Positions 490 through 41,054 of a DNA stretch of 64,000 bases are shown piece after piece. The DNA is from Myxococcales bacterium. GTDB lineage: Bacteria; Myxococcota_A; Polyangia; Polyangiales; Polyangiaceae. The stretch is from NCBI GenBank assembly GCA_025355005.1, contig JANXLV010000045.1, positions 1-64,000 of the forward strand. Reading direction: 5' to 3'. Each line of letters opens with the position of its first letter. Positions within the stretch are counted from its first letter, which is position 1. The position numbers were made by a program, and so were the translations under genes. The notes under the pieces were generated by a model that made no database searches, was not told where the DNA came from, and saw nothing but the letters and a program-made list of their open reading frames with translations.

Positions 490-2280
490 CTACCTCCCAC
501 ACTTCGAGGTGATGGTCTGACGATAGAACCCGAGCTCATCGCGCCAGTACTCGCCGTCGAACGGCCAGATGACGTGCTCGTCGTCTGCTTTGACGATGTT
601 GCGCTGGGATTCTTGGACTGACACCTGGCTACCCTGGATGGCCTGGTCCAGCTGGTTACGCTGGGCGGCCGTGATATCGATGAGGATCTTCGCGCTGTCA
701 CGAAGGTGCTCGTTGAGCTCTGCGAGGTTTCGCTCGTAGCGCTCCTTCGCGAGCTGACCGGCGTTACGGACCGCGATGTCGCGGGCGAGCTGGAGCGCGT
801 CCTTGACGTCATTGCCGAGCGGCGAGTTCTGGAAGCTGCCGGGCGCCTTCTTGAAGCGGTTGCCCTCGTCGTCCAGCACCTGCACGTACTGGAGGTGACG
901 GAGGAGCGAGCGGTCGGACAGCGCGTTCTCGACGACGGTCTTCGTGCGCGGCGGAAGATCCGCCTTGCCGTCACGAACGTCCTTCAAGAACTTGTAGAAC
1001 GGCTCTTCCTGGTTCTCGCCCTTGAACTTGCCGAGCACCTTGTTGAGCTCGTCGTAGAGCGGCTGGTAGCGCTGCTGGAACTTCGCGACGATGATCGTCG
1101 CGTCCTCGTACTGGCAGTTCGAGAAGTAGATGACCGCCTTCAGGATCTCCGCTTCCGGGTAGTACGAGTTCGGGAAGTACGGCGCCTGGATCGTGTGGAT
1201 GTTGCCGAGCGAGTGCGCGTAGTCACCGGCCATGAAGTAGGCCCACGACTCCTCGAAGAGACCGTCGAGCCAGTACTCCGACGCGACGTCGACCTTGTTC
1301 CAGTAGATGACGGCCTGCGAGAGGTGGTCCTGGCTGATCTTCGGAGCGCCCGAGGCCTCGTCGATGGAGACGGACTTCGAGTACATCGTGCGGGCGATGG
1401 AGAGGAGCGCGAGATCGCGCATGCGGCCCTCGTCCTCGAGCCCTTCGACGCCCTCTTCGATCGCGCCGACGATGCGGCGGAACGACTCGACCGCGGGCAC
1501 GCTCTTGCGGAGCTGCACGTTCGAGATGCCGCTGAAGAACTGCGCCTTGATGTAGTACTTCGACTCGCGCGCGACCTTGCCGAACAGGCGGAGCGCCTCC
1601 TCGTACTGGCGGTTCTTGTACTTGTAGCGACCGAGCAGATAGTTGAGGTGCCAGAAGAGCTCGCGCTGGTTCGAGTTGTCGAACTTGCTGACCTGCGCAT
1701 CGCTGTACTTGCCGACGCGCTCGACGATGTCGGCGGGCTCCGGCAAGTCCGTCGCGAGCTTCGACAGCCACAGCAAGGTCTCGTTGAACTTGAGGTGGTT
1801 CGGCTTGTCCGCGATCTCGGAGAAGATGCCGTACGCAGCCTGGTAGAACTTCAAGCGGTAGAGCGCGATCGCGAGGTGGTATTGCGCGAGCTGCTTGTTG
1901 CCTTCGTCGTCGCCGGTCTCACCCTTGTACACGCGGTAGAGCGCGAGCGACGCGTCCGCCCACTTCTCGCCGTCGAAGAGGCGCTTCGCCTGCGCGGCCT
2001 GCTCCGTCATCTGTCCGGCTTGCGGAGGCGGCGCGTTGTCCGTCGCCTTCGCGGCTCCTCCACCACCACCAGCGGGGGGCGTGTTCGGATCATCGATCTC
2101 GATGTCCGCACCACCACCACCCGTGGGCGGCTTCGCGCCACCCTTCGGCGGCTTCGCTGGCTGGCCCGCGGTTGGTTTCTTTGGCTTCTGTGCCTGCGCC
2201 GGATTGGCAGCGAGCGCGATCGCAAGAACCGGCGCCAGAAAAAGGGAGCGGGCGCGGGCCTTTTCGAGAAGCTTTCGCAT
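490..2280 (-). CDS. Exported TPR protein with Pro/Gly-rich linker (GltC-like candidate)
   Basis: About 596 aa. I use the ATG at 2280 because it has GAGGAAA 6 nt upstream and begins a clean signal peptide (MRKLLEKARARSLFLAPVLA, ending NPAQAQ); the longer frame starts 54 nt earlier. After the signal comes a low-complexity Lys/Pro/Gly linker with the acidic motif ADIEIDDPN, then TPR-like helices from about residue 95 to 330 (YHLAIALYRLKFYQAAYGIF, LLGRYKYKNRQYEEALRLFG) and a long helical C-terminus. Likely periplasmic or outer-membrane associated scaffold. The same DIEIDDPN motif occurs in the barrel protein at 9913-10956. In Myxococcus the Glt gliding complex combines a TPR protein (GltC) with paired barrels (GltA, GltB); this gene may be the GltC counterpart, but the name is not proven. 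Confidence 0.8.
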   Translation of the reverse strand: MRKLLEKARARSLFLAPVLAIALAANPAQAQKPKKPTAGQPAKPPKGGAKPPTGGGGADIEIDDPNTPPAGGGGGAAKATDNAPPPQAGQMTEQAAQAKRLFDGEKWADASLALYRVYKGETGDDEGNKQLAQYHLAIALYRLKFYQAAYGIFSEIADKPNHLKFNETLLWLSKLATDLPEPADIVERVGKYSDAQVSKFDNSNQRELFWHLNYLLGRYKYKNRQYEEALRLFGKVARESKYYIKAQFFSGISNVQLRKSVPAVESFRRIVGAIEEGVEGLEDEGRMRDLALLSIARTMYSKSVSIDEASGAPKISQDHLSQAVIYWNKVDVASEYWLDGLFEESWAYFMAGDYAHSLGNIHTIQAPYFPNSYYPEAEILKAVIYFSNCQYEDATIIVAKFQQRYQPLYDELNKVLGKFKGENQEEPFYKFLKDVRDGKADLPPRTKTVVENALSDRSLLRHLQYVQVLDDEGNRFKKAPGSFQNSPLGNDVKDALQLARDIAVRNAGQLAKERYERNLAELNEHLRDSAKILIDITAAQRNQLDQAIQGSQVSVQESQRNIVKADDEHVIWPFDGEYWRDELGFYRQTITSKCGR

Positions 2281-2722
2281 CGTCGTTTCCTCGGGGAAAA
2301 TTCGGGGGGTTGCCAGAACGGAGGTCAAAAACACGTGTCAGAAACGGACGGCCAAAACGTGAACGATGTTGGCCAGATACTAAGAATCGCGGCGGCGATG
2401 CTATTGAGACCGTCGGGGAACGTCAAGGGCTAGCCCCCGTCTCACAAGCGTTTTTCCGGGTGTAGCGCGGCTCTGCGAGCCGCCTTCCGCCACATGCAAC
2501 GCCACATGCAACGAATCGGCGATGAATGGAACCCGCTCAGGCCATGGTCCTTGGTGTGGCGCGGGGTCTGCGAAGAAGCCCGTCTCAAGAGCGCGACGCT
2601 TGCGACGCGCGTCTCACACCGTCTCCGCCCCAGATCGCGAGCGCCTTTCGCTTGACGCCTTTCACTTCAACGGTTTAGGTTTCCCGCGGCACCGCATTCT
2701 AACTGCGTAGGAGTGCTCGTTC
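2281..2722. other. Divergent intergenic region, 442 bp, with a 12-bp tandem pair
   Basis: This is the only stretch over 300 bp without a gene. It separates the minus-strand TPR operon from the plus-strand lipoprotein gene. It carries the minus-strand promoter at 2398-2426, a perfect two-copy tandem of GCCACATGCAAC at 2489-2512, and a weak plus-strand promoter candidate (TTGACG at 2652-2657, then TTTAGG about 16 nt later) that could serve the gene at 2723. I see no RNA gene or small ORF with a convincing ribosome binding site. Confidence 0.5.
2398..2426 (-). promoter_or_regulatory. Sigma70-type promoter for the 490-2280 operon
   Basis: On the minus strand, TTGACG (2426-2421), a spacer of exactly 17 nt and TAGCAT (2403-2398) match the -35/-10 consensus at 5/6 and 4/6. 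The predicted transcription start near 2391 leaves a leader of about 110 nt before the ATG at 2280. It points toward the TPR-protein gene and the coupled gene at the window edge. Confidence 0.5.
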
Positions 2723-3340
2723 ATGATGAATCGTTCGCTGTCGAGTGCAGGCGCCCTTGGGATCCTTGCAGTTGCGTCCCTGGTGATGGTCGCGGTGTTC
2801 CCGGGATGCGGGAGCACCGGCATCGGTGACCCGTGCACTCCGGAGCAGGAGTACAACACCGACTTCAACGGCTTCGACTACAAGCAGGTCAGCGTCGAGT
2901 CGAAGAGCTTCCAGTGCCAGACGCGTCTGTGCCTCGTGAATCACTTCCAGGGCCGCGTGTCGTGCGCCTACGGACAGGACGCCACGGGCGCCGCGCTCTC
3001 GGGTGACAAGGCGTGCAAGGTCCCCGGAACGGACTCGAACGTCTCTGGCAACCCGACCGACAAGAACACGCTCGCCGCGGTCCAGCCGCAGTGCACCGAC
3101 CGCACGTCCGACAAGGCCGTGTACTGCTCGTGCCGCTGCCAGAACGTCGACGGCAAGACGGATGACGGCGCCGTGTACTGCGCGTGCCCGGATGGCTTCA
3201 AGTGCAACCAGCTCGTCGCCGCGACCGGCATCGGCAACGAAGGTCTCACGGGCGGCTACTGCGTGAAGAACGGCACTGCCTACAACGCGAGCAAGGTCTG
3301 CGACTCGATCTGCGACTCGAACACGCACAAGTGTAACTGA
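2723..3340 (+). CDS. Cys-rich secreted lipoprotein, unknown function
   Basis: 205 aa. AGGAG at 2709-2713 lies 9 nt before the ATG and fixes the start. The N-terminus is a hydrophobic signal peptide ending in a lipobox-like VFPGC, so the mature protein is probably lipid-anchored at Cys29. The mature part is very Cys-rich for a bacterial protein, with clusters such as YCSCRCQ, YCACPDGFKC and VCDSICDS. The spacing resembles disulfide-rich, EGF-like modules, but no named domain is certain. It stands 29 nt before the yraN gene and may be co-transcribed with it. The function is not recognised. Confidence 0.8.
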   Translation: MMNRSLSSAGALGILAVASLVMVAVFPGCGSTGIGDPCTPEQEYNTDFNGFDYKQVSVESKSFQCQTRLCLVNHFQGRVSCAYGQDATGAALSGDKACKVPGTDSNVSGNPTDKNTLAAVQPQCTDRTSDKAVYCSCRCQNVDGKTDDGAVYCACPDGFKCNQLVAATGIGNEGLTGGYCVKNGTAYNASKVCDSICDSNTHKCN

Positions 3341-3369
3341 CCGGCGATCACGAGCCGGGCTTCAGGGGC

Positions 3370-3741
3370 ATGGGCGACAAGAGGCATGAGCGTGGGCGCG
3401 CGGCCGAGCAGGCCGTTTGCGACTACCTCGCAGTTCGCGGCTTCCGCGTGACCGCGCGGAATCGCCGGCTCGGGCCGCTGGAGATCGACATCATCGCGGA
3501 GAAGGGCCCTCTGCTCGTGGTCGTGGAGGTGCGCACGCGCGCGGCCTCCTCCTACGACACAGGGCTCTCGTCGATCAGGGCCGAGAAGCGGCGCAATCTG
3601 CTCCGCGCGACGCGGCGGCTCTGGAGCTCCGAGCTGCGAACGCGACGCGAGATCGAACGCGTGAGAATAGACGTGGCCGCCGTCACCATGAACGAGAACG
3701 GCGTCACGATCACGTACGTAGAAGGCGCGATCGTCGGCTAG
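3370..3741 (+). CDS. yraN: YraN family protein (UPF0102)
   Basis: 123 aa, the usual length for the family. YraN proteins have a restriction-endonuclease-like fold; their cellular role is unsettled. Family features are visible in order: the N-terminal GRAAEQAVCDYLAVRGF helix, NRRLGPLEIDII with the acidic active-site-type Asp/Glu, and VVVEVRTR, equivalent to the usual VEVKxR. The start ATG gives the expected MGDKRHERGRAAE N-terminus. In many bacteria yraN lies beside rsmI or rnhB; here its neighbours are lipoprotein genes. Confidence 0.9.
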   Translation: MGDKRHERGRAAEQAVCDYLAVRGFRVTARNRRLGPLEIDIIAEKGPLLVVVEVRTRAASSYDTGLSSIRAEKRRNLLRATRRLWSSELRTRREIERVRIDVAAVTMNENGVTITYVEGAIVG

Positions 3742-3772
3742 GGCTTACGTCCGTCGGCTCTGGTGGTGCTAC

Positions 3773-4618
3773 ATGCAGGGGATGACCAAGGCGACACGGC
3801 GCTCGCTCGCTACCACCCTCTGCGCGCTTGCCATCGCTTGCGGATCGAGGAGCACGCAAAGCGTGGACGACGCGGGTGTCGTCGTGGATGCGGGTCACGT
3901 CGTGGATGCGACGCCGGAGGCCGCAGTGGAGACGCCCGACGCGGACACGTGCCTGCCGCATCGTCCGCCGATCATGGCGGCGACGAGCGTCACCATCGCA
4001 TTGCATGGCGTGAACTTCGGTGACCATTTCCCCGACGGCGGGCTCTACGCGAACGAATGGATGGACCTCGGGTACAACCTCGACGGGCTCTGCACCCACA
4101 CCACCGATACGAACGTGTGCACGCCTGCGCAGAATGGCTCCCGCGTCGTGCAGCTGGATGGCGTGAATGGCACGGACAACGCGTTCGGCCACGTGGTGCT
4201 CGCGCCCATCAAGCAGCTCGTCTCGCCGACCTTCTTCGCGACATCGGCGGTGTTCGTCGACATCACCGACGGCAAAGGCATTATCTACATCGGCGGCGCT
4301 CAGCAGGGTCTTTCGATCCCCGTGGCAGAGGCCGCCGTGTCCAGCTCCGCCGGTGGAGGCGGAACGTTCTCGGGCATCATCCAGACTGCGGCGTTCATCG
4401 AGGAGGTGCGCGCCACCGCGGGGCGCGTGAACGGCAACCTGTGCACGGGCATGGGGATCGACGAGCTGCTCACGACGATGCTGCAGTCATCGGATATCGG
4501 CGCGGACGGCGCCCAGATCGTGGGGGCCGCCTGCAGTGGGATCTCGATCGGGCTGACGTTCGTGACGTCGGAGGCTGGGTCGCCACCGAGCCCGCTACCG
4601 AATCCGTGTAGTCAGTAG
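3773..4618 (+). CDS. Secreted lipoprotein, unknown function
   Basis: Up to 281 aa; an ATG 12 nt further in (3785, MTKATRRSLATTLCALAIAC) is an equally good start. The signal peptide ends in LAIAC, a lipobox. A flexible Val/Asp/Ala-rich linker (VDDAGVVVDAGHVVDATPEA) typical of myxobacterial surface lipoproteins follows. The remaining 230 residues look like a beta-rich globular domain with a few Cys (CTHTTDTNVC, NLCTGMG, GAACSG). No family is recognised. The stop at 4616-4618 runs directly into a hexanucleotide repeat tract. Confidence 0.75.
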   Translation: MQGMTKATRRSLATTLCALAIACGSRSTQSVDDAGVVVDAGHVVDATPEAAVETPDADTCLPHRPPIMAATSVTIALHGVNFGDHFPDGGLYANEWMDLGYNLDGLCTHTTDTNVCTPAQNGSRVVQLDGVNGTDNAFGHVVLAPIKQLVSPTFFATSAVFVDITDGKGIIYIGGAQQGLSIPVAEAAVSSSAGGGGTFSGIIQTAAFIEEVRATAGRVNGNLCTGMGIDELLTTMLQSSDIGADGAQIVGAACSGISIGLTFVTSEAGSPPSPLPNPCSQ

Positions 4619-4620
4619 CC

Positions 4621-4698
4621 TAGACCTAGACCTAGACCTAGACCTCGACCTCGACCCCGACCTCGACCTCGACCTCGACCTCGACCTCGACCCCGACC
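4621..4698 (+). repeat. Hexanucleotide microsatellite (TAGACC/TCGACC), 13 units
   Basis: Four units of TAGACC are followed by nine units of TCGACC or CCGACC without interruption, beginning 3 nt after the stop codon of the preceding lipoprotein gene. The same unit in inverse orientation to its gene occurs at 41649-41707. It lies outside any supported gene, in the leader region of the small secreted protein at 4755. Confidence 0.9.
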
Positions 4699-4754
4699 TC
4701 CACGACCGTTCACGTTCACCGGGAGAGGTGCTAGTGGCTGGGTACGAGGTCGGG

Positions 4755-5117
4755 ATGTCGTTGCGGGGGTTGTGCATTGCTGGAGTGTTGGCGGCTGTGA
4801 CGACCGTGTCGGTCGCTTCTGCTTCCGCTTCCATTTCCCCTCGGCACGGGCGTTTTCCGATGCCGGCTGCGGAGTATTCACACAAGGTCGACGAGCGCGT
4901 GCTGCACGCTCGCGAGCGGATGGAGACTCGCATCGTCCGGCGCAAGCTGTCTTCGGAGCGAGCACGCGAGGTGCGCGGCCGGTTCGAGATGAGCGTGAGC
5001 GAGGTCAAGAAGGTCCTCGCGGACGCCGCATCGGACGGCGTGATCACGCGCGAAGAATGGCGCCGCGTCAACCAGAGCACTCGGACGCTATCGAGAGCAG
5101 CTGCCCGCGCGCGCTAG
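4755..5117 (+). CDS. Small secreted protein with one EF-hand-like loop
   Basis: 120 aa from the ATG at 4755, preferred over a GTG at 4728 because it directly begins a signal peptide (MSLRGLCIAGVLAAVTTVSV, then ASASAS) and has GAGG a few bases upstream. The mature part is helical and basic/acidic (HKVDERVLHARERMETRIVR). It ends with DAASDGVITREE, which fits a 12-residue EF-hand loop at positions 1 (D), 5 (D), 6 (G), 8 (I) and 12 (E) but has Ala at position 3. Calcium binding is therefore possible but unproven. Function unknown. Confidence 0.65.
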   Translation: MSLRGLCIAGVLAAVTTVSVASASASISPRHGRFPMPAAEYSHKVDERVLHARERMETRIVRRKLSSERAREVRGRFEMSVSEVKKVLADAASDGVITREEWRRVNQSTRTLSRAAARAR

Positions 5118-5197
5118 TGTGACCACAAAAAGCTTGCGCAGTCCCGTTGCGCTAGTAAGTTCCCGTCGTGCCTTCGCCCGTCTGGTCGAAGACTCTT

Positions 5198-5270
5198 GTG
5201 GCCGTAGCTCAGTTGGTAGAGCGCCGGACTGTGGCTCCGGCTGTCGCGGGTTCAAACCCCGTCGGTCACC
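5198..5270 (+). tRNA. tRNA-His (anticodon GTG)
   Basis: A complete cloverleaf can be folded: acceptor GTGGCCG with CGGTCAC, D-arm GCTC/GAGC, anticodon stem CCGGA/TCCGG with anticodon GTG at 5231-5233, and T-arm GCGGG-TTCAAAC-CCCGT. C73 is present at 5270. The CCA end is not encoded (CTA follows). The base before the acceptor stem, 5197, is T rather than the G-1 usually encoded in bacterial tRNA-His genes. The 3' end lies 14 nt from the convergent deacetylase gene. Confidence 0.95.
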
Positions 5271-5284
5271 CTACTTCTCCAGAA

Positions 5285-6316
5285 CTAGAGCGCCTGCGCC
5301 CAGGCGCGGCGCGCGGTCGCTTCGGCGCGATCGAGATCGTCGTGGTCGACCTCGCGCAGGATCTCCTCCGCGTCGTGGTTGACCATGCCGTGGATCGCCG
5401 AGAGCAGACCGCCTTCGAGCGCGACCAGATCGTAGCCGCCCTCGAGGACCATGCCGATGCGTCCTTCCGAGTGCTTGTCCGCGACGTTCCGGAGCGCGCG
5501 TGATATCCACCCGAAAGCGGCTGCGCCGAGCGTCATCTCCGCGAGCGGATCGCGCAGGCTCGCATCGAAGCCCGCGCTGACCAGGATGATGCTCGGCGCG
5601 AACGCGTCCAGCACGGGAAGGATCACGCGCTCGAACGCGCCGCGATACACCGCGTCGCCGCCGCCCGCGGTCATGGGGACGTTGAGCGTGAAGCCCTTGC
5701 CCTCACCGGTGCCCGTCTCGTCGAGCGCGCCGGTGCCTGGGTAGAAAGGAAACTGGTGGGTGGAGACGTAGAGGACACCGGGATCCGCATAGAACATCTC
5801 CTGCGTTCCGTTGCCGTGGTGCACGTCGAAGTCCACGATCGCTACACGTGGCAGACCGAGCGCGCGTGCCTCAGCAGCGGCGACAGCCACGTTGTTGAAG
5901 AGGCAGAAGCCCATGGCCTGCGACTCGCGCGCATGATGACCCGGCGGCCTGACCAGCGCGACGCCACGCTTCACTGGGCCGCTGACGATCTGCGCGACCA
6001 TCGCTGCGACGCTGCCAGCGGCGAGGCGCGCGACCTCGATGCTCGACTCGTTCACGTAGGTGTCCGGGTCGATGTAGCCCTTCTTACCGTTCATCCGCTC
6101 GAGCTCGGCCAGGTAGGAGGCGCTGTGCACGCGGACCAGCGCGTCGTCCGTGGCCCGGCTGGGCGCGATCGCGGTCCACGCAACGTTCGCGCGGGCGACC
6201 GCCGCCCGTGCGGCGATGAGCCGCTCCGGACGCTCTGGATGGTAGGCCGGCGGCGCGTGGTCCGAAAATCGAGGGTCATCGACGAGGAGCGCGGCCTCGG
6301 CGGCGGGAGACGACAT
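5285..6316 (-). CDS. Histone deacetylase family (arginase/deacetylase fold) zinc hydrolase
   Basis: 343 aa from the ATG at 6316 (MSSPAAEAALL). The frame stays open far upstream but the upstream part has no family match. Class II HDAC/acetylpolyamine amidohydrolase features are complete: HPERPERL near 26-33, RPPGHHA at 123-129 with the tandem His, VDFDVHHGNGTQ at 161-172 with zinc ligands Asp164 and His166, SAGFDA with Asp251, and EGGYDL with the catalytic Tyr. It should be a cytoplasmic metal-dependent amidohydrolase acting on acetylated lysine, polyamine or a related small molecule; the substrate cannot be read from the sequence. It converges on tRNA-His and diverges from the sensor gene at 6566. 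Confidence 0.92.
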   Translation of the reverse strand: MSSPAAEAALLVDDPRFSDHAPPAYHPERPERLIAARAAVARANVAWTAIAPSRATDDALVRVHSASYLAELERMNGKKGYIDPDTYVNESSIEVARLAAGSVAAMVAQIVSGPVKRGVALVRPPGHHARESQAMGFCLFNNVAVAAAEARALGLPRVAIVDFDVHHGNGTQEMFYADPGVLYVSTHQFPFYPGTGALDETGTGEGKGFTLNVPMTAGGGDAVYRGAFERVILPVLDAFAPSIILVSAGFDASLRDPLAEMTLGAAAFGWISRALRNVADKHSEGRIGMVLEGGYDLVALEGGLLSAIHGMVNHDAEEILREVDHDDLDRAEATARRAWAQAL

Positions 6317-6565
6317 GTCTTTCCACCATACGCGGCAGCACGCGGCGCGGGAAGGGGGAGCGGACTCCGAATCGCGACATCTGGTACGTGCACGCGCAAC
6401 GCGGAACACCCGCAATGCGTTGTTGCCGCGCGAAAGCGGGCGGTGATAGCTTGGGCGTGCTCGGCGCATGCGCGCCCTGGGCGAAACGTGGCTGGTCTCA
6501 GTTCTGAGCCTGGCCCAACCTGCGGCACACGGGGACGTGGCCGCGCAGTCGGAGGCGTTCGGGGA

Positions 6566-7993
6566 ATGCGAAACAAGATCATCGCAGTCAATGCGGTCAT
6601 CGTCCTGATCACGGGGCTCCTTGCCTTCGCGATCGTGAGGCAGACGTTGGTGACCGCCGCGTCGAACCCCGCAGCGCTCACCGAGCGCGCCAAACGTGAT
6701 GCCCAGAGCGCAGCTGCGAAGCTCCAGCTCGACGGCCTTCGCGCCGAGCGCTGGCTTGCCGGCAAGGCCCAGGAGCCCGCCGCAGCGGACGCGCTCACGC
6801 GCTCCACTGCAAACGCGCGCGCCGATGCGGCCGTCGCGCTCGCGGACCGCGTACTGTCTGCGGCCAAGCAGACGTTCTCCGGAAACCCGCCGTCGCTCGT
6901 CATGGTGATCGACGCGCAAGGGAAGGCCGTCGGCCAGAACGGCTCGGCGCTCTCCGCCGGTCAGGACGTCGCTGCGGCGCACCCGCTCCTCAAGGAGACC
7001 ATCACGAAGGGCCAGTCTGGCTCTGACGTGTGGGTCAGCCAGACGGGCCAGTACATGGTCGCGTACGTCCAGGTGACGAACGACTCGAAGCCGGTCGGCG
7101 CGCTGGTCATGGGCGTTCCGCTCGGTGACGAGCTCGGCGTTGGCGAGAACAACACGGGCCGCGGCGTCATGCTCGCGATCGCAAACGGCGCGGATGTGTC
7201 GCTTGCCGCAAGCTCGATCGGTGCAACCGACGACCTGAAGGCCGCCGCGAACGCCACGCTGAAGGCGGAGCTCAAGACCGCGCTCTCCAGCGGCCACGTG
7301 GAGACGGCGCAGTCCGGGGACGTGTTCCTCGCGGCAGCGCCCCTCGACAACTTCGGCGATGGCAAGCACGCGGCGGTCATCGTCGCGTCGCCCACCACGC
7401 TGCTCGCGGATGCCAAGAACATCCCGCTCTATGTGCTCATGTCGTCGCTCCTCGGGCTCATCCTCGTCGTCATCGGCGGCTGGTTCCTCGGCGACTACAT
7501 CTCGAAGCCCATCGGCGTTCTCGAGGAGGGCCTCCTGGCTATTCTCAACGGTCAAACCGACAAGCGCTTCGAGCTCGAGCACCCGGATCTCGGCGGCCTC
7601 GGCTTCCGGATCGATCAGCTCTTGAATCAGCTGATGGGCATCGAGGAAGACACCACGGACGATCAGGGCCGCGTCTCCAAGGCGCCGTCCGCGGCGAACT
7701 TCTCCGACGCCATGTCCGTCGACAAGAGCGGCACCGCAGGCAGCGGCGAGTCCGTCGATGCATCTGCGCTGAAGCAGGAGGCCGCGGACGCCTACTACGG
7801 GCGCATCTTCGCGGAGTACATCGCCGCGAAGAAGGGCCTCGGCGAGGCAACGGAGCACATCACCCCGGACACCTTCAAGACGCGCATCCAGGGCATGGAG
7901 CAGGACGCGCACCAGAAGCATGGGCGTCCGGTTCGCTACAAGGTCCAGACAGTCGACGGGCAGGTAAACTTCCTGGCCGTCCCGCTGCCTTGA
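6566..7993 (+). CDS. Membrane sensor-like protein with periplasmic domain and HAMP-type region
   Basis: 475 aa from ATG 6566 (MRNKIIAVNAVIVLITGLLA); the frame is open upstream but those codons overlap the divergent gene. One N-terminal membrane helix, a periplasmic Cache/dCache-like region of about 270 residues (VMVIDAQGKAVGQNG is typical), then a second helix (IPLYVLMSSLLGLILVVIGG) and a HAMP-like segment beginning SKPIGVLEEGLL. Unlike a chemoreceptor it has no methyl-accepting signalling hairpin. It ends in a compact domain with ADAYYGRIFAEYIAAKKGLGE and FLAVPLP, which I remember from uncharacterised myxobacterial proteins. Probably a ligand-sensing membrane protein acting through a partner; function unknown. 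Confidence 0.8.
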   Translation: MRNKIIAVNAVIVLITGLLAFAIVRQTLVTAASNPAALTERAKRDAQSAAAKLQLDGLRAERWLAGKAQEPAAADALTRSTANARADAAVALADRVLSAAKQTFSGNPPSLVMVIDAQGKAVGQNGSALSAGQDVAAAHPLLKETITKGQSGSDVWVSQTGQYMVAYVQVTNDSKPVGALVMGVPLGDELGVGENNTGRGVMLAIANGADVSLAASSIGATDDLKAAANATLKAELKTALSSGHVETAQSGDVFLAAAPLDNFGDGKHAAVIVASPTTLLADAKNIPLYVLMSSLLGLILVVIGGWFLGDYISKPIGVLEEGLLAILNGQTDKRFELEHPDLGGLGFRIDQLLNQLMGIEEDTTDDQGRVSKAPSAANFSDAMSVDKSGTAGSGESVDASALKQEAADAYYGRIFAEYIAAKKGLGEATEHITPDTFKTRIQGMEQDAHQKHGRPVRYKVQTVDGQVNFLAVPLP

Positions 7994-8082
7994 CGAGTTG
8001 CTTCTGGCAATTGACCCACGCCACTTCGTGAGCACATTCATAGACTCGCTGAGCGACCAGCGGGAGCGAAATAACTAGGAGA

Positions 8083-8112
8083 ATGCAGAGCGACCGCAGG
8101 GAGCGGCTGCAT
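8083..8112 (+). terminator. GC-rich hairpin between sensor and HEAT genes
   Basis: ATGCAG (8083-8088) pairs with CTGCAT (8107-8112), and an inner CCGC/GCGG stem closes over AGGGA. There is no clear run of T after it, so it could be a weak terminator, an attenuator or only a structured leader for the gene starting at 8123. Confidence 0.3.
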
Positions 8113-8122
8113 TTGGTATCCC

Positions 8123-8863
8123 ATGGGTCTATTCGATTTGTTCCGCGGAAAAGAAAAGGGCGGGGAAAAGCCGAAGAGCAACCCCGCCGCGAAATGGGCG
8201 GAGGCAGCGGGCAACAAGCGGGCGCAGAACTACGACCGTCAGGAGGCGCTGCAGGAGCTCTCCGCCATGGGAACGGCGGAGGCGGCAGAGGCGCTGCTTC
8301 GGCGCTTCAACTTCACCTCTGATCCCTCCATCACGGATCAGGAAGAGAAGGACCTCGCATACCAGGGCATCCTGAAGGCGGGCGCGGATGCGATCGTCCC
8401 GGTGCGCGCGTATGCCGCGAAGGCAGAGAGTCTCGCGTGGCCGATGCGCATCCTGAAGGAGATCCTGGAGGAGGACGCGCTCGTGAAGGAGCTGCTCGTG
8501 TGGCTCACGAGATGGGACACGGAGTACTCCAAGTTCATCGATCCGAAGCTGCAGCTCCTGGTCGCGCTGGAGGACTACAAGGCCCCGGAGATCGTCGACG
8601 CGGTCATCCCGTTCCTCGAGGACGTGAACGAGCCCGCGCGCTTCCACGCAGCCGTCACGCTGCTCGTGCAGCAGGACCCGCGCGTGGAGGAGCCGCTCCG
8701 CAAGATGTTCCCCGAAGAGGAGAGCGTCCGCGTCCGCAACAAGATCGCAGAAGCGTTCGCAGAGCGAGCGTTCGTCATCCCCGAAGAAGAGCGCGCCGCC
8801 ATGCGCAAAGCCCTACCCCCCGCCTACAGCATCGACGGCGAAGGCAAGCTCACGAAACGCTGA
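8123..8863 (+). CDS. HEAT-repeat protein, cytoplasmic
   Basis: 246 aa with no signal peptide (MGLFDLFRGKEK). From about residue 40 onward it is built of paired amphipathic helices of the HEAT/PBS-lyase type, such as RQEALQELSAMGTAEAAEALLRRF cut by a loop, AYQGILKAGADAIVPVR, EIVDAVIPFLEDVNEPARFHAA and VRVRNKIAEAFAERA. Such repeats usually act as protein-binding scaffolds. There is no enzymatic motif. Homologous cytoplasmic HEAT proteins are widespread in myxobacteria, without an assigned role that I know of. The gene stands alone between a sensor gene and the convergent barrel genes. Confidence 0.85.
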   Translation: MGLFDLFRGKEKGGEKPKSNPAAKWAEAAGNKRAQNYDRQEALQELSAMGTAEAAEALLRRFNFTSDPSITDQEEKDLAYQGILKAGADAIVPVRAYAAKAESLAWPMRILKEILEEDALVKELLVWLTRWDTEYSKFIDPKLQLLVALEDYKAPEIVDAVIPFLEDVNEPARFHAAVTLLVQQDPRVEEPLRKMFPEEESVRVRNKIAEAFAERAFVIPEEERAAMRKALPPAYSIDGEGKLTKR

Positions 8864-8905
8864 GCCCGGCTCTGGGCTCCTCCGGGGCGCCGTTACTAGG
8901 AGCCG

Positions 8906-9823
8906 TTACTCGGAGACCTTGGTTTCCCAGGGGAACGCGACGACCACGCCGATGGTCACGAACTGGTTCCACTTGAAGGTTTGATCCTTCCCGTCGACGA
9001 CGGCGGTGCCCGTGGCCTGGAGGTTCGGGAACTTGCCGTCCGTACCGGCGCCGCGCGAGTCGAACCCGGGGCGGTTCCAGGAGAACGGGAGCGCGCGGTA
9101 CTCGGCGCGGAAGCCGATCCCCTTGTTCGTATAGAACGAGAGGCCGAGGCCGCCGGTCCCCGTGATCGCGGTGCGACCTTGGAGCTTGAACGAGTCCGGA
9201 TCGGTGCAGCTCTTCTGCGGAGCCGCACCACCACAGTCGCCGCGCTCCGACAAGCCGACGAACGCGATGCCACCATGAATGTACAAATCGGTGTCGACGA
9301 AGAGCTTCTGGAACAAAGCGATCTTGCCGCGGAACGGCGCGAACTGCGCTTGTGGACCGGCGAAGAACGAGATCTTCGTGGTCTGGTCGGCGAAGCTGGC
9401 CTTCGTGAACGGATCGGCACCCGTGCCGGCGCCGCGGTGATTGACGTTCGGCGCGGTGCGCGAGTTGCGGTCGGCGACCTTGTCGATCTGATCGGTGAGG
9501 TCTGTCGTGGGGTTGAACAGCGCGAAGAAGCCGAACACACCGACGGAGAGATAGTCCTTGATGTTGTAGTGCAGCGTGGTGCCAAGCGCGTGCGTCTGCC
9601 TGTACTCATCGAGCAGGGAGAACGCGAACTGCGGCGCGAGCTCGAAGCGTCCGTCACGGTGGAGGCGCTCCTTGCGAACGGCGGGGGCGCCCGCGAGAGG
9701 ACCCGTGATCTGGATCTCTTGTGCGGCGGCGGGTGTGGCGTACGCGGTCGCGCCAAGAACGACCGCGGCGGCGCTCACTCTCAGCAACGCGCCGGAGAAG
9801 AAACGCGTTTGGCGGGTCTGCAT
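8906..9823 (-). CDS. Outer-membrane beta-barrel protein (GltA/GltB-like candidate)
   Basis: 305 aa from ATG 9823, chosen because GAGGA lies 5 nt upstream and the signal peptide (MQTRQTRFFSGALLRVSAAA, ending ATPAAAQ) begins there; the open frame reaches 9916 but its first 31 residues look non-coding. The mature part alternates polar and hydrophobic residues as in a barrel (FELAPQFAFSLLDEY, LGTTLHYNIKDYLSVGVFG) and finishes with strand VTIGVVVAFPWETKVSE. It lies 90 nt downstream of a second barrel gene and is probably in the same operon. A tandem pair of barrels recalls GltA-GltB of the Myxococcus gliding apparatus; this assignment is inference. Confidence 0.75.
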   Translation of the reverse strand: MQTRQTRFFSGALLRVSAAAVVLGATAYATPAAAQEIQITGPLAGAPAVRKERLHRDGRFELAPQFAFSLLDEYRQTHALGTTLHYNIKDYLSVGVFGFFALFNPTTDLTDQIDKVADRNSRTAPNVNHRGAGTGADPFTKASFADQTTKISFFAGPQAQFAPFRGKIALFQKLFVDTDLYIHGGIAFVGLSERGDCGGAAPQKSCTDPDSFKLQGRTAITGTGGLGLSFYTNKGIGFRAEYRALPFSWNRPGFDSRGAGTDGKFPNLQATGTAVVDGKDQTFKWNQFVTIGVVVAFPWETKVSE

Positions 9824-9912
9824 GCTCGTCCTCGTTCGGCTCGAGAGTCGGCTGGTGTTGCCTTGGGCGATGGCTTTGCGCGATCTGCTGGACATGGGCT
9901 TCTCGTTCCGCC

Positions 9913-10956
9913 TCATTTCGGCAACCGGTATTCCCAGCTGAAGGGCAAGAACACGCTGACGCCAAGCTGGGCCTGGACGTTGTTGGTGAGCTTGCTCTCG
10001 CCGAACCAGGTACCCTTGTCTTGCTGCTGCACCTGGGTCGCCGCGATCGTGAGCGACTCCAGCTTCTCGTTGTAGATGTAGTCGCGGATCTCGAGGTCAG
10101 CGGCGAACCAGCGATTGAAGAAGATGCGGAGACCGAGGCCGGCGTTGAACGCGAGCTTGGCCTCGAAGGCGAAGTTGCGGTTGTCAGGGTCGATGACAGG
10201 GATGGGGCGCGTGGAGAGCATGCCCAAGCCGGCGACCGTGTAGAGATCGTAGTGGAAGATGAAGTCCGAGAACCCGGCGAACTTGCCGTAGATCGGCACG
10301 TACGTCACGTTCAGGTTTGCGTTCCACTGGTACTCGTTGAGCGGCACCGCGACGCGGGTCGCGCGACGGTTCTGGAAGTTGAACTCCGAGTCCGCGTTCA
10401 GGCCTTGATAGAAGGTGCCCGAGATGCCGACCGCGAGGACGTTCGTGATGTAGAAGTTCGCGCCGAGGCCAGGGCCCGGGTGGTTGACGAACTGGTCGTT
10501 CAAGGTCAGCGACCAGTAGGGCATGAGCTCGAAGCGGTGGTAGCGGAGCGCGTAGATCTGCTGGACCGCGTAGACCTCAGCCGCGACGTCCTTGCCAGCG
10601 GCAGACTTGAGGTCCGTTCCGCCCTTGGGACACGCAGAGGGGTCGATCTCGCAGATGCCACCGCCGGCGCCGCCGGTCCCACCGGTTCCGCCACCACGTG
10701 CCGGGTCCGTACCACCAGCCGGGGGCGTGGTCCCTCCAGCGGGGTCGGTCGGGGTCTTGGGGGCGTTCGGATCGTCGATCTCGATATCGCTACCGCCCGC
10801 GCCAGCCGGCGTCGGGGGGGTCGGAGGTGCCGCTGTTGGTGCCGTGCCACCGCCGGGCTTCTTTTTCTGAGCAAATGCCGGCGCGGACATCAGCAGGGTT
10901 GCTGCCATTGCCGCCGAGATCACCCCGAGAAGAAGCCCCTTCGTCGCCTGCTTCAT
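9913..10956 (-). CDS. Outer-membrane beta-barrel protein with DIEIDDPN linker
   Basis: 347 aa from ATG 10956 (AAGGGG 6 nt upstream; signal peptide MKQATKGLLLGVISAAMAAT, ending APAFAQ). A Pro/Gly-rich linker contains SDIEIDDPNAP, almost identical to the motif in the TPR protein at 490-2280, and a short Cys-containing segment (GGICEIDPSACPKGG). The last 240 residues form a barrel-like domain (YHRFELMPYWSLTLNDQF, GANFYITNVLAVGISGTFYQ) that aligns by eye with the neighbour at 8906-9823, including ...PFSWE near the end. Likely outer membrane, possibly in one complex with the TPR protein. Confidence 0.78.
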   Translation of the reverse strand: MKQATKGLLLGVISAAMAATLLMSAPAFAQKKKPGGGTAPTAAPPTPPTPAGAGGSDIEIDDPNAPKTPTDPAGGTTPPAGGTDPARGGGTGGTGGAGGGICEIDPSACPKGGTDLKSAAGKDVAAEVYAVQQIYALRYHRFELMPYWSLTLNDQFVNHPGPGLGANFYITNVLAVGISGTFYQGLNADSEFNFQNRRATRVAVPLNEYQWNANLNVTYVPIYGKFAGFSDFIFHYDLYTVAGLGMLSTRPIPVIDPDNRNFAFEAKLAFNAGLGLRIFFNRWFAADLEIRDYIYNEKLESLTIAATQVQQQDKGTWFGESKLTNNVQAQLGVSVFLPFSWEYRLPK

Positions 10957-11112
10957 CGCTGCCCCTTCCGCATCCAGATCGCGCACGTAACTCGTTATTA
11001 AAATTGGGGAAATCAGCTAACCGCGAAAGCGCTGCGCACTCTAACATGCAGAACCGCAGGTAAACAATGAAAATACCTGTGGGACGCGAATTGGAGGTTT
11101 GGCGCGGTGTCG

Positions 11113-11144
11113 CTTGCTTCGTTGCTCCGTTGCTTCGTTGCTTC
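11113..11144 (+). repeat. 8-bp tandem repeat (TTGCTTCG), 4 copies
   Basis: Four consecutive copies, the second with one substitution (TTGCTCCG), lie 20 bp beyond the ftsY stop codon in the ftsY-barrel intergenic region (10957-11164). That intergenic region is noticeably AT-richer than its surroundings around 10990-11080 and probably holds the barrel-operon promoter. Confidence 0.85.
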
Positions 11145-11164
11145 GTTACAGAATCGCGCCCGCG

Positions 11165-12439
11165 TCAGGCCGCGTGCTGTTCGTCGTCATCACCACCGAA
11201 GAGCGCCTCCACGAAATCCTCGGCGGAGAACTCACGGAGGTCCTCTGCGCGCTCACCGAGACCGATGTAACGGACGGGGATCTTGAGCTCGTCGGCGATG
11301 GCGAGCACGATGCCGCCCTTGGCCGTACCATCCAGCTTGGTGAGGACGATGCCGGTGAGGTCGATCGCGTCCTTGAACATCTGAGCCTGCGTCAGCGCGT
11401 TCTGACCCGTCGTCGCGTCGAGCACGAGGAGCGTCTCGTGGGGCGCGCTGTCGAAGGCCTTGTTGATGGTCTTCTTGATCTTCTTGATCTCGTCCATCAG
11501 CGGGACCTTCGTGTGGAGGCGGCCGGCCGTGTCGACGAACAGCGTGTCAGCGCCTGCTTCGCGCGCCTTCGTGGTGGCCTCGTAGGCGACCGCGCCAGGG
11601 TCCGCGCCCTCCTTGCCCTTCACGACCTCGGCGCTGACGCGCTTGCCCCAGACCTCGAGCTGCTGCACGGCGGCAGCGCGGAAGGTGTCGCCCGCGGCGA
11701 GCATCACCTTCTTGCCATCCGCGGTGAAGCGCGTCGCGAGCTTGCCAATGGTCGTGGTCTTCCCGACACCATTCACGCCGACCATGAGCACGACGAGCGG
11801 GCGCTGCGAGCCGACCGAGAGCGGGCCCTTGTCGCGTTGACCATCGATCGAGAGAATGCGCAGCGCCTCGCGCCGTAGCGCGTTTCGCACGGCGGCGTCG
11901 TCCGCGAGCTCGTTCTTCTGGAGGCTCTCGCGGAGCCGCTCGATGATCGCCTGGGTCGTCTTCACGCCGACGTCAGACGTCAGCATGACCTCCTCGATTT
12001 GCTCGAGGATCGCGGGGTCGATCTCCTTCTTGCCGCTGAAGATGGCGGTGAGCTTCGCGATGAAGCCCGTCCGCGACGCAGCCAGGCCCTTTCGGAGGCC
12101 CGCGATGTCCTTCTTCGCGCGCTTGGAGGGCGTCGGCTGGCTGGGCTCCGACTGGAGATTCGACGAGGAGAGCGCCTCTGCCGGCGGAACGAACTTCTTC
12201 GGCGGTACGAGCGACTCCGTGTCGACACGGATGTCCTCGATGGCCTTGCCGTCGCCCTTCTTTGGGGCTTCGCCCTTCTTCGAGTCGGGCTTCGCATCGG
12301 CCTTGGCGTCCTTCTGGTCGGGCTTGCCGGCTCCATCGGCCTTCTCCGGCAGCGCGTCCGGCGCCTTCTTCAGGACGAAGAAGTACACCAGCGCTGCGAT
12401 GACCAGGCCGACCACGACGATAATCCCAAGTGAACCCAT
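11165..12439 (-). CDS. ftsY: Signal recognition particle receptor FtsY
   Basis: 424 aa. FtsY is the GTPase that docks SRP-ribosome complexes at the inner membrane for co-translational insertion. Order of parts: an N-terminal membrane helix (residues about 3-21, GIIVVVGLVIAALVYFF), an acidic/basic Lys-Asp-rich A region (25-105), the N helical domain (110-200), then the G domain with GVNGVGKT at 221-228, DTAGR at 303-307 and TKLDG at 367-371, and the C-terminal EFVEALF-type helix. A real transmembrane anchor, rather than the amphipathic helix of E. coli FtsY, is known for other high-GC lineages and many deltaproteobacteria. Confidence 0.97.
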   Translation of the reverse strand: MGSLGIIVVVGLVIAALVYFFVLKKAPDALPEKADGAGKPDQKDAKADAKPDSKKGEAPKKGDGKAIEDIRVDTESLVPPKKFVPPAEALSSSNLQSEPSQPTPSKRAKKDIAGLRKGLAASRTGFIAKLTAIFSGKKEIDPAILEQIEEVMLTSDVGVKTTQAIIERLRESLQKNELADDAAVRNALRREALRILSIDGQRDKGPLSVGSQRPLVVLMVGVNGVGKTTTIGKLATRFTADGKKVMLAAGDTFRAAAVQQLEVWGKRVSAEVVKGKEGADPGAVAYEATTKAREAGADTLFVDTAGRLHTKVPLMDEIKKIKKTINKAFDSAPHETLLVLDATTGQNALTQAQMFKDAIDLTGIVLTKLDGTAKGGIVLAIADELKIPVRYIGLGERAEDLREFSAEDFVEALFGGDDDEQHAA

Positions 12440-12597
12440 TTCTACCCGCCTCCGAAGCGCGTTCGGCGCGGCCCGTTATACGCGATCTAGAAGACCGGTG
12501 TCGACCAGCACCTACCGAGGAGAAGGAATCGACAGGAAGTACGGAAGAACGGATGGTTTTGGTGGACTTGCGCCTTACCCACGCAACCTATGCACCG

Positions 12598-14382
12598 TCA
12601 CTGGGGTTCGGTTTGCTCGCCGACCTTCACGCTTGGCTCCGGCGCGTCGGGGCGGAGGGCTTCGATCTCGCGCTCCTTCGCGCGGTCCACCGTGACGGAG
12701 TCGAAGGCGCCGCGCTCCACCGCGTCGGCCCAGCGGGCGGTGCGGTAGTCGTGCGATGCGAGGCGACGCACGAGGCCCGGCGTGGGCTCTGGCTTTCCGT
12801 CGTAGGCGCCGCCGCGGGCCCGCGCCCACTTCACGAGCGACGTCAGGATGGCACGCTTTCGGAGCACCAGCGCGATCCGCAGCTCCCCTTCTGCCGGCAC
12901 GGTGGTCGGCAGCTCCGAGTGGAGCGGGCCCGACACGACGAGCTGGTCCCCGGGCAGCGTCTCCACATGTGACAGCTTGAAGCGCCCTGCCCCATCCGCC
13001 CGCGTCTGCGCCAGCGGCATGCGGGCATGGAACGACGAGCGCTCGATGCGAACCTCTGCGCCCGACACCGGCGTGCCCTCGTGCGCGTCGACGACCTCTC
13101 CGGTCCAGCCACTGCGTGCATACTGCACGGGTTTCACGACGTCGACGCGCGCGTGACCGATGGCCCCGAGCTCCTCTTTCTTCGCGTTGACGACCTTCGG
13201 CGCCTGGCGCTGCTGCCGACGAAACAGCACCAGGAAGCCGGCGACGACCACCGCGAGCAGCGCCAGCGGTGCACGACGCCACAGGCTGCCGCTGCCGGGC
13301 GTGACCTTGACGATGAGCCGGGACTGCGCGCGGTAGAACGGCGACACCGGGACGTACCGCATGTGAACTTCGACGGGGGAAGAGCCGTGCGACGCGAACG
13401 TGAGCAGGACGCGCGCGCGACCCGACGTGACGGGAGCCATGCCCACGACGACGTCCCCGAGGCGTGCCTCGACGCTGCCTTCGGGCACGGGTCCAGACGC
13501 CGCGGTGCTCACGTCGATGACGGCGGGCACGCCCTCGTCCGTGGCGCCTTCCGGGATGGGCGACGCGAGCGAGAGCTCCACTGGCGCGATGCGATCGACC
13601 TCCGCCCTTGCGTCCGCCGGCGAGGTGTCGCTGTCGCCGACGAACATGAGGCGCAGCTCTCCCTTGCCTGGCGGTCCGAGGCGCGCGGTCGGAACGACGA
13701 AGCGCGCGCGGCCTGACGTGTTCGTGGACTCGCGCGCGAGCTCGGTGCCCGTCTCGGAAGAGAGCGCGATGCTCTTGTTGGGCGCAGGCTCGAGGATGCC
13801 GTTCTCGTCGGTGGTGGCAGTGGCCTCGAGGGTGACCGTCTTCGCCTCGAGGGCGACCGTGTGGAGCTCCGGATCGAACGCCAAACGCAGGCGCGCGCGC
13901 CGGAGGTCGATGGGAAGGTCGAGCTTCACGCCGTCGGTGAGCTTGTCGCCCGCGTACGATGCGCGAAGCCGGTAGGCATCGGCGGAGAGCATGAGCGTCA
14001 CGCAGAAGCGTCCCGCGTCGTCCGTGCGCGGCACCATCGAGTCGTCGTCGAGCGGAACGAGCTCGTTGCCGCTGCATCGCTTCGCGTCGCGCATCGCCTT
14101 GCGGACGGTCGCATCCGCGGGGTCGGACTCGCGCTGCACGGACACGGACACGCGCTCGCCCGCGAGCGGCGCTCCTGTGTCGTCGCGGAGGAGCCCCGTG
14201 ATCGTCGTCGGCGCGCCGCGCAGCACCTCCACGGTGAGCTTGGCGGTGCCGTGAACGCGAACACGCGCAGCCTCCGCTGGTCGCGGCGCGAAGCACACGA
14301 GCACGCCGAGCACGACCGCCCACATCGACGTGCGGACGAAGCGGACGAAGCTTCTCTGCAGGGTGGTGCGACTGCTGCTCAA
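12598..14382 (-). CDS. Membrane-anchored protein with Ig/carboxypeptidase-regulatory-like domains
   Basis: 594 aa with an N-terminal signal (SMWAVVLGVLVCFAPRPAEA). The ectodomain consists of repeated beta-sandwich units: VEVLRGAPTTITGLLRDDTG with GAPLAGERVSV near 50-80, several further units, and a membrane helix at about residues 370-390 (LALLAVVVAGFLVLF) followed by basic RRQQRQ. The cytoplasmic or distal part contains a carboxypeptidase-regulatory-like sandwich (GWTGEVVDAHEGTPVSGAEV, RADGAGRFKLSHV). No enzyme motif is visible. It lies upstream of ftsY on the same strand with a 158-bp gap in which I see nothing specific. Function unknown; surface or periplasmic structural role is a guess. 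Confidence 0.78.
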   Translation of the reverse strand: MSSSRTTLQRSFVRFVRTSMWAVVLGVLVCFAPRPAEAARVRVHGTAKLTVEVLRGAPTTITGLLRDDTGAPLAGERVSVSVQRESDPADATVRKAMRDAKRCSGNELVPLDDDSMVPRTDDAGRFCVTLMLSADAYRLRASYAGDKLTDGVKLDLPIDLRRARLRLAFDPELHTVALEAKTVTLEATATTDENGILEPAPNKSIALSSETGTELARESTNTSGRARFVVPTARLGPPGKGELRLMFVGDSDTSPADARAEVDRIAPVELSLASPIPEGATDEGVPAVIDVSTAASGPVPEGSVEARLGDVVVGMAPVTSGRARVLLTFASHGSSPVEVHMRYVPVSPFYRAQSRLIVKVTPGSGSLWRRAPLALLAVVVAGFLVLFRRQQRQAPKVVNAKKEELGAIGHARVDVVKPVQYARSGWTGEVVDAHEGTPVSGAEVRIERSSFHARMPLAQTRADGAGRFKLSHVETLPGDQLVVSGPLHSELPTTVPAEGELRIALVLRKRAILTSLVKWARARGGAYDGKPEPTPGLVRRLASHDYRTARWADAVERGAFDSVTVDRAKEREIEALRPDAPEPSVKVGEQTEPQ

Positions 14383-14576
14383 GCCTCTGGGAGCATACGC
14401 GAACCACGAGGCCAGGGCGTGGCGCGCCCGCGCGCCCGTGGCTGCAGGTGTGGGTCGAGGTCGGAGCCGTGCCGTCTATGCGTGGTGCTGCCTGATTGAA
14501 GCTGTGGCGACTCGCTTCGTCCTACAGACTCGTCGGTAGGAAATTGAGAGATGCGCGTGATACCGTGAAGAGAAGC

Positions 14577-23067: not shown

Positions 23068-24286
23068 GTCGCTCCGAAAGCGGCTGCAGGGTCACGCCCT
23101 TCTGCCATTCGACAGTGACGGAGATGAAGCGCGCATAGAGGTCTCGCTGCATCCAGAGCCAGCACATGAGCGGCGGCAGCACACGCAATGGGTGAAAGAG
23201 GCGGTGCGCGCCGAGGACGGAGAAGAACCCGGTCACGCTGGGGTCCGCGCGTGTGAAGAACGGTCCCACGCATACGAACGCGAGGACCACCAGCGTGGTG
23301 CGTGCGACAGACACCTTGGCCACCGACCACCACGCGGACACGGCGCCCGCGAAGATGACGTACGTCGCGTACTCCGCGCGGTGGTTGCACAGGACGGAGA
23401 ACACGAGCACCGACGCAACGAACGTGCGTTTGAACGCGGTGTCTGCGCCGTACCGGACCGCGAACAAGAGGGGAATTGCAAGCGCGCACAGGCAGACCGC
23501 CTGCAGCGCAGTGTTGCTCGTCGAGAGGCCCGCGCCCTTCTGGAGCATGCTCATCACGCTCCATCCGACGTTGTCGTGGTCCCAGGCAAGGAGCGCGCGC
23601 CACGACCCGTAGTCGCGCAAGAGGAGGCGCGACGACGTGATGAGCAGGGGAAGCAGAACGAGCACGCCGCCCGCGACGAGGAGACGCGCCGCGTTGGCGA
23701 CCTTCCGCGGATACAGGACGATCGCAAGCGCGCACAGGAGCGGGAAGACCTTGATGGCGGCGCCTAGCGCGAGCAGCACCGCGAACGTGTTGCCGCGCCC
23801 GCGCGACAGGGCGCGCACCGCAAGCAAGCAGAGACCAAGGACCAGGAGGTTCGATTGGTCGCCATCCGTCGCGAGCAGCACGCCGAAGAGCGCGAACAGC
23901 ACGGCGCGCTCGCGCTTGCTCGGGTCGTCCACGAAGCCGTAGAGGCCCGCCCAGGCGACGCCGAAGTTGAGCGCGCCCCACGCACACGCGCACAGCCACG
24001 GCGGCAACGCGGCCAGGGGCACGAAGAGGAGCGCGAACGTCGGGCTGTACTTGAAGTAGTCGGCGGCGTGCAACACGTACAGGTCTTCGCCGGTGATCAG
24101 ATCGCGCGCCGCTTGCCTGAACACCATCAGGTTCTGCGACTGACCGAACGCGAACGAGACCAGGCCGGAGATTGCGCCCGCGCCCACCCATAGAAGCGCG
24201 GTCCAAGCGGCGTGGAGCTTCGTGGCAAGCGGTGCTGGGCGAAAGCGCGCGTCGTGTCGTTTCGAAGAAAGAAAAGAAGAGGCCAT
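23057..24286 (-). CDS. GT87 (DUF2029) polyprenyl-phosphate mannosyltransferase-like membrane protein
   Basis: 409 aa from ATG 24286, which has GGAAG just upstream; an ATG at 24319 would add 11 residues. About ten membrane helices are visible. Typical DUF2029 features are FRQAARDLITGEDLY near 80-95, YFKYSPTFALLFVPLAALP near 100-120, DGDQSNLLVLGL and GAAIKVFPLL. GT-C enzymes of this family transfer mannose or a related sugar from polyprenyl-phosphate on the outer face of the inner membrane. The 11-bp overlap with the MMPL gene suggests that the two act on the same glycolipid or lipid-linked product, which is inference. Confidence 0.85.
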   Translation of the reverse strand: MASSFLSSKRHDARFRPAPLATKLHAAWTALLWVGAGAISGLVSFAFGQSQNLMVFRQAARDLITGEDLYVLHAADYFKYSPTFALLFVPLAALPPWLCACAWGALNFGVAWAGLYGFVDDPSKRERAVLFALFGVLLATDGDQSNLLVLGLCLLAVRALSRGRGNTFAVLLALGAAIKVFPLLCALAIVLYPRKVANAARLLVAGGVLVLLPLLITSSRLLLRDYGSWRALLAWDHDNVGWSVMSMLQKGAGLSTSNTALQAVCLCALAIPLLFAVRYGADTAFKRTFVASVLVFSVLCNHRAEYATYVIFAGAVSAWWSVAKVSVARTTLVVLAFVCVGPFFTRADPSVTGFFSVLGAHRLFHPLRVLPPLMCWLWMQRDLYARFISVTVEWQKGVTLQPLSERHAP

Positions 24287-24389
24287 GAGACTTCCGTACG
24301 GCCCCACCCGCACACCCACAAATGACTGCGACTGACACGAAATGACCCGGACTCACGAGGCACCGTTTTTTTGCGGCCGACAAGCGCAT

Positions 24390-28567: not shown

Positions 28568-28645
28568 GGCGCGAGAGTACAGCGCACTTCGAGCGGCGAT
28601 CGTGGCGATTTCGAGCTATACAGCCGGACCAGCCCAGGTGACACA

Positions 28646-29155: not shown

Positions 29156-29170
29156 GAACGTGAGGTCGTC

Positions 29171-29611: not shown

Positions 29612-29807
29612 CGTCTTCGAACGGCTTCGCGTTCGTCGCACACCACCTCACGCTGAACGACGGAGGCGCCGTCACGGCCCATTCGCACCGTGGGGTGATG
29701 GAGCGCGAACGCTCGATCGCAGTTGCCGCATTTCAAAGATGAAATCGCGGCCGTGGGACCAGGTCGTCTTCAAATTGGGCCACCGCGCACGGCTCGTGCT
29801 TCCTTGA

Positions 29808-30512: not shown

Positions 30513-30547
30513 CCCACGCCCTTCGCGAGGTGTGATAAACCTGGGGC

Positions 30548-31135: not shown

Positions 31136-31136
31136 C

Positions 31137-32138: not shown

Positions 32139-32164
32139 GATAGTCTGGATCGATCGCGGCCCCC

Positions 32165-33808: not shown

Positions 33809-33858
33809 GGGGCTGATGTCGGGCGGGTGACGCGGCAGCTGGTGTAGACGAGGAATCG

Positions 33859-34974: not shown

Positions 34975-35005
34975 GAGAGAAAGAAGCCGCTCGTATCTGC
35001 GCGGC

Positions 35006-35788: not shown

Positions 35789-35798
35789 GTTTGCCAGG

Positions 35799-41047: not shown

Positions 41048-41054
41048 AAAAGGC

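Follow-up and report, generated by a model that had tools for sequence, protein, structure and literature searches.

The window analysed here is a stretch of 64,000 nucleotides from a Myxococcales bacterium of the family Polyangiaceae (assembly GCA_025355005.1, contig JANXLV010000045.1, positions 1 to 64,000). It carries genes for relatives of GltC, GltB and GltA, which in Myxococcus xanthus belong to the outer-membrane part of the Agl-Glt gliding machinery. Two of the encoded proteins share a short acidic motif, DIEIDDPN, in the linker that follows their signal peptides. One is a GltC-like tetratricopeptide repeat (TPR) protein of 596 amino acids with a signal peptide (490..2280, minus strand), which carries the motif at residues 59-66 (2083..2106, minus strand). 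The other is a GltB-like outer-membrane beta-barrel of 347 amino acids with a disordered N-terminal linker (9913..10956, minus strand), which carries it at residues 57-64 (10765..10788, minus strand). The motif had been noticed in both proteins by a first-pass annotation of the sequence, and both translations bear this out.

The GltC-like protein matches the NCBIfam profile NF033756 (gliding_GltC) over its full length (residues 24-594 of 596, profile positions 58-619 of 622), with 311.7 bits and an E-value of 1.2e-92. This score is below the equivalog cut-off of 450 bits, which is exceeded in only 1 of 235 genomes sampled from the phylum, and matches at E <= 0.001 occur in 191 of the 235. The protein is therefore labelled here as a GltC homologue and not as an NF033756 equivalog. 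It is the sole strong match in its own genome, the next two being partial and scoring 58 and 56.5 bits. AlphaFold models of this protein and of the GltB-like barrel were built from the alignments of this analysis. The GltC-like model consists of TPR-like helices, with a mean predicted local distance difference test (pLDDT) score of 81.8, and it matches TPR proteins in Foldseek. Searches of PDB sequences gave weak matches only (best E-value 0.059). Residues 14-76, which include the motif, have pLDDT values below 50; the motif itself is at about 34 and is not docked on the protein's own TPR domain.

The GltB-like protein matches TIGR04565 (OMP_myx_plus) with 106.3 bits, above the cut-off of 60. 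Its model is a barrel of eight strands (each of at least three residues) with a low-confidence linker (pLDDT below 50 at residues 51-67), and Foldseek matches it to OmpA, OprF and OmpW. The two bearers of the motif thus differ in fold, as had been proposed. A second, GltA-like barrel (8906..9916, minus strand) scores 52.6 bits against TIGR04565 (E-value 5e-14), slightly below the cut-off. Which barrel is called GltB-like and which GltA-like was decided from gene order in relatives, where the two stand in a row behind FtsY. The comparison with Glt profiles that had been called for at first pass thus yielded full-length homology to GltC together with two barrels of the TIGR04565 type.

Within the draft genome (8.68 Mb, 93.67% complete, 4.71% contamination), a degenerate DNA pattern for DIEIDDPN searched on both strands has two matches, and the reversed-pattern control has none. 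With the looser IE[ILMF]D[DE]P, the matches are again those two sites alone, and its reversed control has none. The possibility that many exported proteins of this genome share the motif, which had been named at the outset as an outcome that would undo the idea, is thereby ruled out. The two 24-nucleotide copies agree at 22 of 24 bases, and both mismatches are synonymous. The 30-nucleotide blocks that flank them are identical at 12, 15, 8 and 8 of 30 positions. Because DNA identity ends at the motif and the mismatches are synonymous, the comparison argues for a likeness that is kept at the protein level and against the recent copying of a long tract. Gene conversion over a very short tract is a possible alternative source of the DNA likeness.

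Beyond this genome, neither the exact motif nor D[IV]E[IV]DDPN (a pattern that does not cover the V codon GTG) was found in the other 234 of the 235 phylum-sample genomes. This rules out verbatim conservation of DIEIDDPN across the phylum; what is conserved is a looser pattern. Relatives were studied in the best 80 of 373 confirmed stretches with a GltC alignment, taken from genomes of Sorangium, Polyangium and Minicystis and from metagenome-assembled genomes labelled Polyangiaceae, Myxococcales, Deltaproteobacteria and so on. The GltB of three relative loci (L099-L101) contains DIEIDDPN. In many others, the linkers after the GltC and GltB signal peptides hold a related pattern that shifts by lineage in both proteins. 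Lineage types include [DE][IV]x[LI]D[DE], DMxFx(hydrophobic)[DE][DE] and, in both proteins of one genome, VEDLGGD. Examples of GltC and GltB linkers from the same locus are IELDDPPP and IELDDPKP (L097), KEINLDDE and KEINLDEP (L123), PVDMDAD and PVDADAD (L114), VEDLGGDE and VEDLGGDD (L166), DMSFGVDEVHPD and DMSFDLDEVHPD (L055), and DMDFSIDE and QMDFSLDE (L056). The disordered linkers of the GltC-like and GltB-like proteins thus share a motif of the form acidic, hydrophobic-x-hydrophobic, acidic, which varies by lineage where both proteins have it. The searches of open-access literature made here gave no description of a motif shared by GltC and GltB.

In the DNA of eight related genomes, the pattern for DMxFx(hydrophobic)[DE][DE] has ten matches against two for the reversed control. 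Eight of the ten, spread over six of the eight genomes, fall in linkers that follow the signal peptide of GltC or GltB, and two lie outside such linkers. The looser [x]ID[LF]D[DE] has 39 matches in eight own-family genomes; the 30 inspected comprise 10 GltC linkers and 20 sites elsewhere. A predicted lipoprotein in one relative (L208; G102:C1, around 1363379) ends in PEVIDLDEEK and shares a core with the EVIDLDEE of the same genome's GltC. This is either chance or a third bearer of the motif.

An initial test of co-variation between the two linkers was confounded by low-complexity sequence, with several high-scoring pairs made up of DDDD or KPAP, and the test was therefore repeated with motif windows. 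In a dereplicated set of 32 GltC/GltB pairs (at 80% GltC identity), a motif window is present in 26 GltC and 11 GltB linkers, compared with 17% and 14% of shuffled linkers, respectively. Matched pairs outscore permuted pairs (p 0.0014, n = 11). A larger set of 67 pairs, which are not independent of one another, combines the pair from the window with 66 of the 84 pairs available. With a looser window, both linkers are positive in 36 of the 67, and the observed mean score is 19.8 against 11.0 +/- 1.3 for permuted pairs (maximum 16.8 in 20,000 permutations). Lineage-level co-variation of the GltC and GltB linkers is clear, and genome-level matching is only suggestive.

Two other segments of the module's proteins are well conserved. 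The GltC-like protein ends in a tail (residues 568-596; 493..579, minus strand) that is among the best-conserved regions of the alignments despite model confidence below 50. E568, W572, G576, E577, W579, D581, E582, L583, G584, Y586 and C594 are invariant in one alignment (A1), and all are invariant again in another (A3) except G576, which is nearly so. This tail is likely a second contact site. After its predicted maturation, the GltA-like barrel begins with QEIQITGP (9698..9721, minus strand). This segment is conserved among relatives, where it is typically QEIQLTGPLAGAPAV, and the pattern [QE][ED]-hydrophobic-x-hydrophobic-x-GPL occurs in 77 of 79 GltA loci (some genomes being counted twice). 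We take this segment to be rather TonB-box-like. Although it resembles the motif, it ignores the lineage type of GltC and GltB and is therefore not counted as a third copy; it may do something else.

To our knowledge, it is not settled how the Agl motor in the inner membrane is coupled, through the peptidoglycan layer, to the Glt complex of the outer membrane. The reading that we tentatively favour, at somewhat short of an even chance, is that the window holds the GltC/GltB/GltA-like outer-membrane module of an envelope machine of the Agl-Glt type, in which the linker motif docks both GltC and GltB to one periplasmic partner. In related species the tags of the two proteins are often different from those here but match each other, as would be expected if both bound to one partner. 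The motif would then be a docking peptide offered by both proteins. Its alternating hydrophobic residues make it probable that it pairs with an exposed beta-strand edge by strand addition, as the TonB box does. The leading candidate for the partner, as yet unproven, is the TonB-like tail at the C terminus of a GltG- or GltJ-like protein of the inner membrane. A motor of the AglRQS type, driven by protons, could then hold on to the outer-membrane barrel and to its TPR partner in the periplasm by equivalent tags, each on a flexible tether. The first-pass proposal of a single binding partner gains only indirect support, from the lineage-level co-variation of the linkers, which stops short of naming the partner itself.

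A further step, which we regard as doubtful, would make the lineage-matched tags the grip for proton-driven TonB-like arms of GltG and GltJ. This would amount to a TonB-box-like system that is divided between a barrel and a soluble TPR adaptor and co-evolves with its receptor across Myxococcota. A mini-review (PMC5349195) credits M. xanthus GltG and GltJ with TonBC motifs and states that GltAB 'contain possible TonB boxes'. TonB boxes in GltA and GltB have thus already been suggested in print; the new part is that in many relatives the linkers of GltC and GltB change in step with each other from lineage to lineage. The motif in GltB and GltC, being defined, shared and co-varying, offers a candidate contact that is small and open to mutation, and a third protein that changes in step with it could be recognised as the receptor.

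A number of observations weigh against docking on a shared partner and against the likeness to TonB boxes. The motif is presumably more acidic than TonB boxes in general. The conserved N terminus of GltA does not change with the lineage type of GltC and GltB. By a strict count, 59 of 67 GltC linkers have the motif against 28 of 67 GltB linkers, so that over half of the GltB proteins are without it. (Among the eight negative GltC linkers, L138 and L166 hold variants missed by the pattern, and L053 was mis-trimmed, one of several linkers that automatic signal-peptide trimming put in the wrong place.) Three of the 11 GltB windows in the dereplicated set (L154, L162 and L163) look like chance. The 18 of 84 pairs omitted from the larger set are 14 own-family loci, partly from genomes already included, and the four most distant loci (L073, L074, L089 and L090), whose linkers show no matching motif. 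At three loci (L095, L096 and L098), the score of the own pair is negative. When the own partner was compared with that of the nearest other genome, it scored better in 21 cases and worse in 14, with one tie (Wilcoxon p 0.037, sign test p 0.155). Own pairing is thus only modestly better than nearest-genome pairing, and much of the co-variation signal is thus phylogenetic. Lastly, a review (PMC9389320) reports the TonB-box likeness for GltF and not for GltC.

Among other possible receptors, the foremost is the TPR groove of GltC. Binding would then stay within the GltA/GltB/GltC module, with the groove taking the GltB motif in trans and GltC's own motif in cis, so that the two copies compete in a form of switching or autoinhibition. 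TPR grooves are able to bind short peptides. Genomes whose GltC has two copies of the motif also fit this arrangement, since their GltB is without it in 11 of 12 cases, compared with 28 of the 55 remaining genomes (Fisher p 0.010, with no correction for phylogeny). A direct GltB-GltC interaction in M. xanthus, as stated in PMC4488436, points the same way. Against it, the motif of GltC is not docked in the model of that protein and has very low confidence there, and we consider binding within the module rather unlikely.

It is unlikely, too, that the linkers are alike through copying, by short gene conversion, or through shared compositional drift, with no shared partner at all. The low-complexity pairs among the high scorers and the tendency of co-variation to follow clades both favour such an origin. 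Set against these are the confinement of DNA identity to a motif whose only mismatches are synonymous, the frequency of GltC motif windows far above that in shuffled linkers, and the presence of quite different lineage types in both proteins. A role for the acidic segment in export, maturation or outer-membrane delivery (through Sec, a periplasmic chaperone or the beta-barrel assembly machinery), and not in the machine, would suit its position after the signal peptide of exported proteins. This is very unlikely, as no other copy of the motif exists in the genome and, going by PMC4488436, barrel assembly in M. xanthus would not need it.

GltB was detected by profile, within range of GltC, at 59 of the best 80 relative loci. 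At 58 of these 59, FtsY, GltB and GltA follow one another on the opposite strand from GltC; at the remaining locus (L152), GltB lies at the locus edge and GltA was not found. In the window, FtsY (11165..12439, minus strand; SRP54 domain, E-value 8.3e-76) is the upstream neighbour of the GltB-like gene, and the row lies on the same strand as the GltC-like gene, 6.6 kb away. Compared with relatives that bear the same block (e.g. L104 and L097), the genes from 5285-8041 through 12598-14382 are inverted relative to GltC, which places the inverted block at about 5200-14400; it is either a local inversion or an assembly fault. A tRNA-His gene (5198-5271) lies near one end of the block. Divergent from the GltC-like gene is a Cys-rich predicted lipoprotein (2723..3340, plus strand), homologues of which are found on the opposite strand just upstream of GltC at all 80 loci (alignment gap 228-1322 nucleotides, median 642). 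It has no Pfam and no NCBIfam match, and our guess is that it may be the counterpart of GltK/CglC.

Other Glt-like genes are found elsewhere in the genome. A GltJ-like protein combines an MJ0042 zinc ribbon with an N-terminal NF033761 match (114.9 bits) and an AgmX/PglI tail (NF033768, 47.5 bits). Three further proteins have NF033768 tails of 58.1, 98.2 and 55.4 bits (cut-off 40) and match NF033760 (GltG) with 86.7, 76.4 and 35.5 bits, respectively. The one with the 98.2-bit tail sits downstream of a GltE-like TPR protein (63.4 bits). All of the GltG, GltJ and GltE matches are under their respective equivalog cut-offs. One more TIGR04565 match (89.9 bits) is found on contig C339, where the region 24000-42407 (L253) combines this barrel with a GltE-like TPR protein and with a protein whose tail is of the GltG type. 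Beside them are long TPR-like and FtsE/FtsX-like genes, named by eye, and the region recalls the M. xanthus G1 cluster. The presence of GltJ-, GltG- and GltE-like genes makes it likely, as judged from sequence, that the genome encodes a machine of the Agl-Glt type with a gliding, spore-related or other role. Together with the GltC and barrel homology and the FtsY-GltB-GltA row near GltC, these genes support the likeness to the outer-membrane Glt proteins of Myxococcus that had been suspected at first pass.

GltA-H are described as paralogues of NfsA-H (PMC4488436), and the module here may have either a Glt role or one like that of the NfsA-NfsB-NfsC sporulation paralogues. The GltA-GltB-GltC module of the M. 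xanthus Agl-Glt system (MXAN_2539-2541) resembles the window, as far as its description goes, in that a single region encodes a TPR protein along with a pair of OmpA-like barrels, with signal peptides; the GltC-like score here is below the equivalog cut-off. GltG-, GltJ- and GltE-like genes are likewise present elsewhere in the genome. M. xanthus differs in having a single gltK-B-A-C cluster, whereas the row behind FtsY is opposite GltC in relatives and set apart from it on the same strand in the window.

An analogy from outside bacteria is offered by SUMO-interaction motifs, in which a hydrophobic core with acidic residues next to it extends a beta sheet by one strand; these motifs are eukaryotic and intracellular, unlike the one described here, and there is no SUMO in this system. 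TonB-dependent transporters differ in other respects, since the proteins of the window have no plug domain and no 22-strand barrel, the motif has an acidic consensus, and it is also present in a soluble TPR protein. What the two systems have in common is an outer-membrane protein with a short motif close to its mature N terminus, as in TonB boxes, and TonB-like tails, which here are found on the GltG- and GltJ-like proteins.

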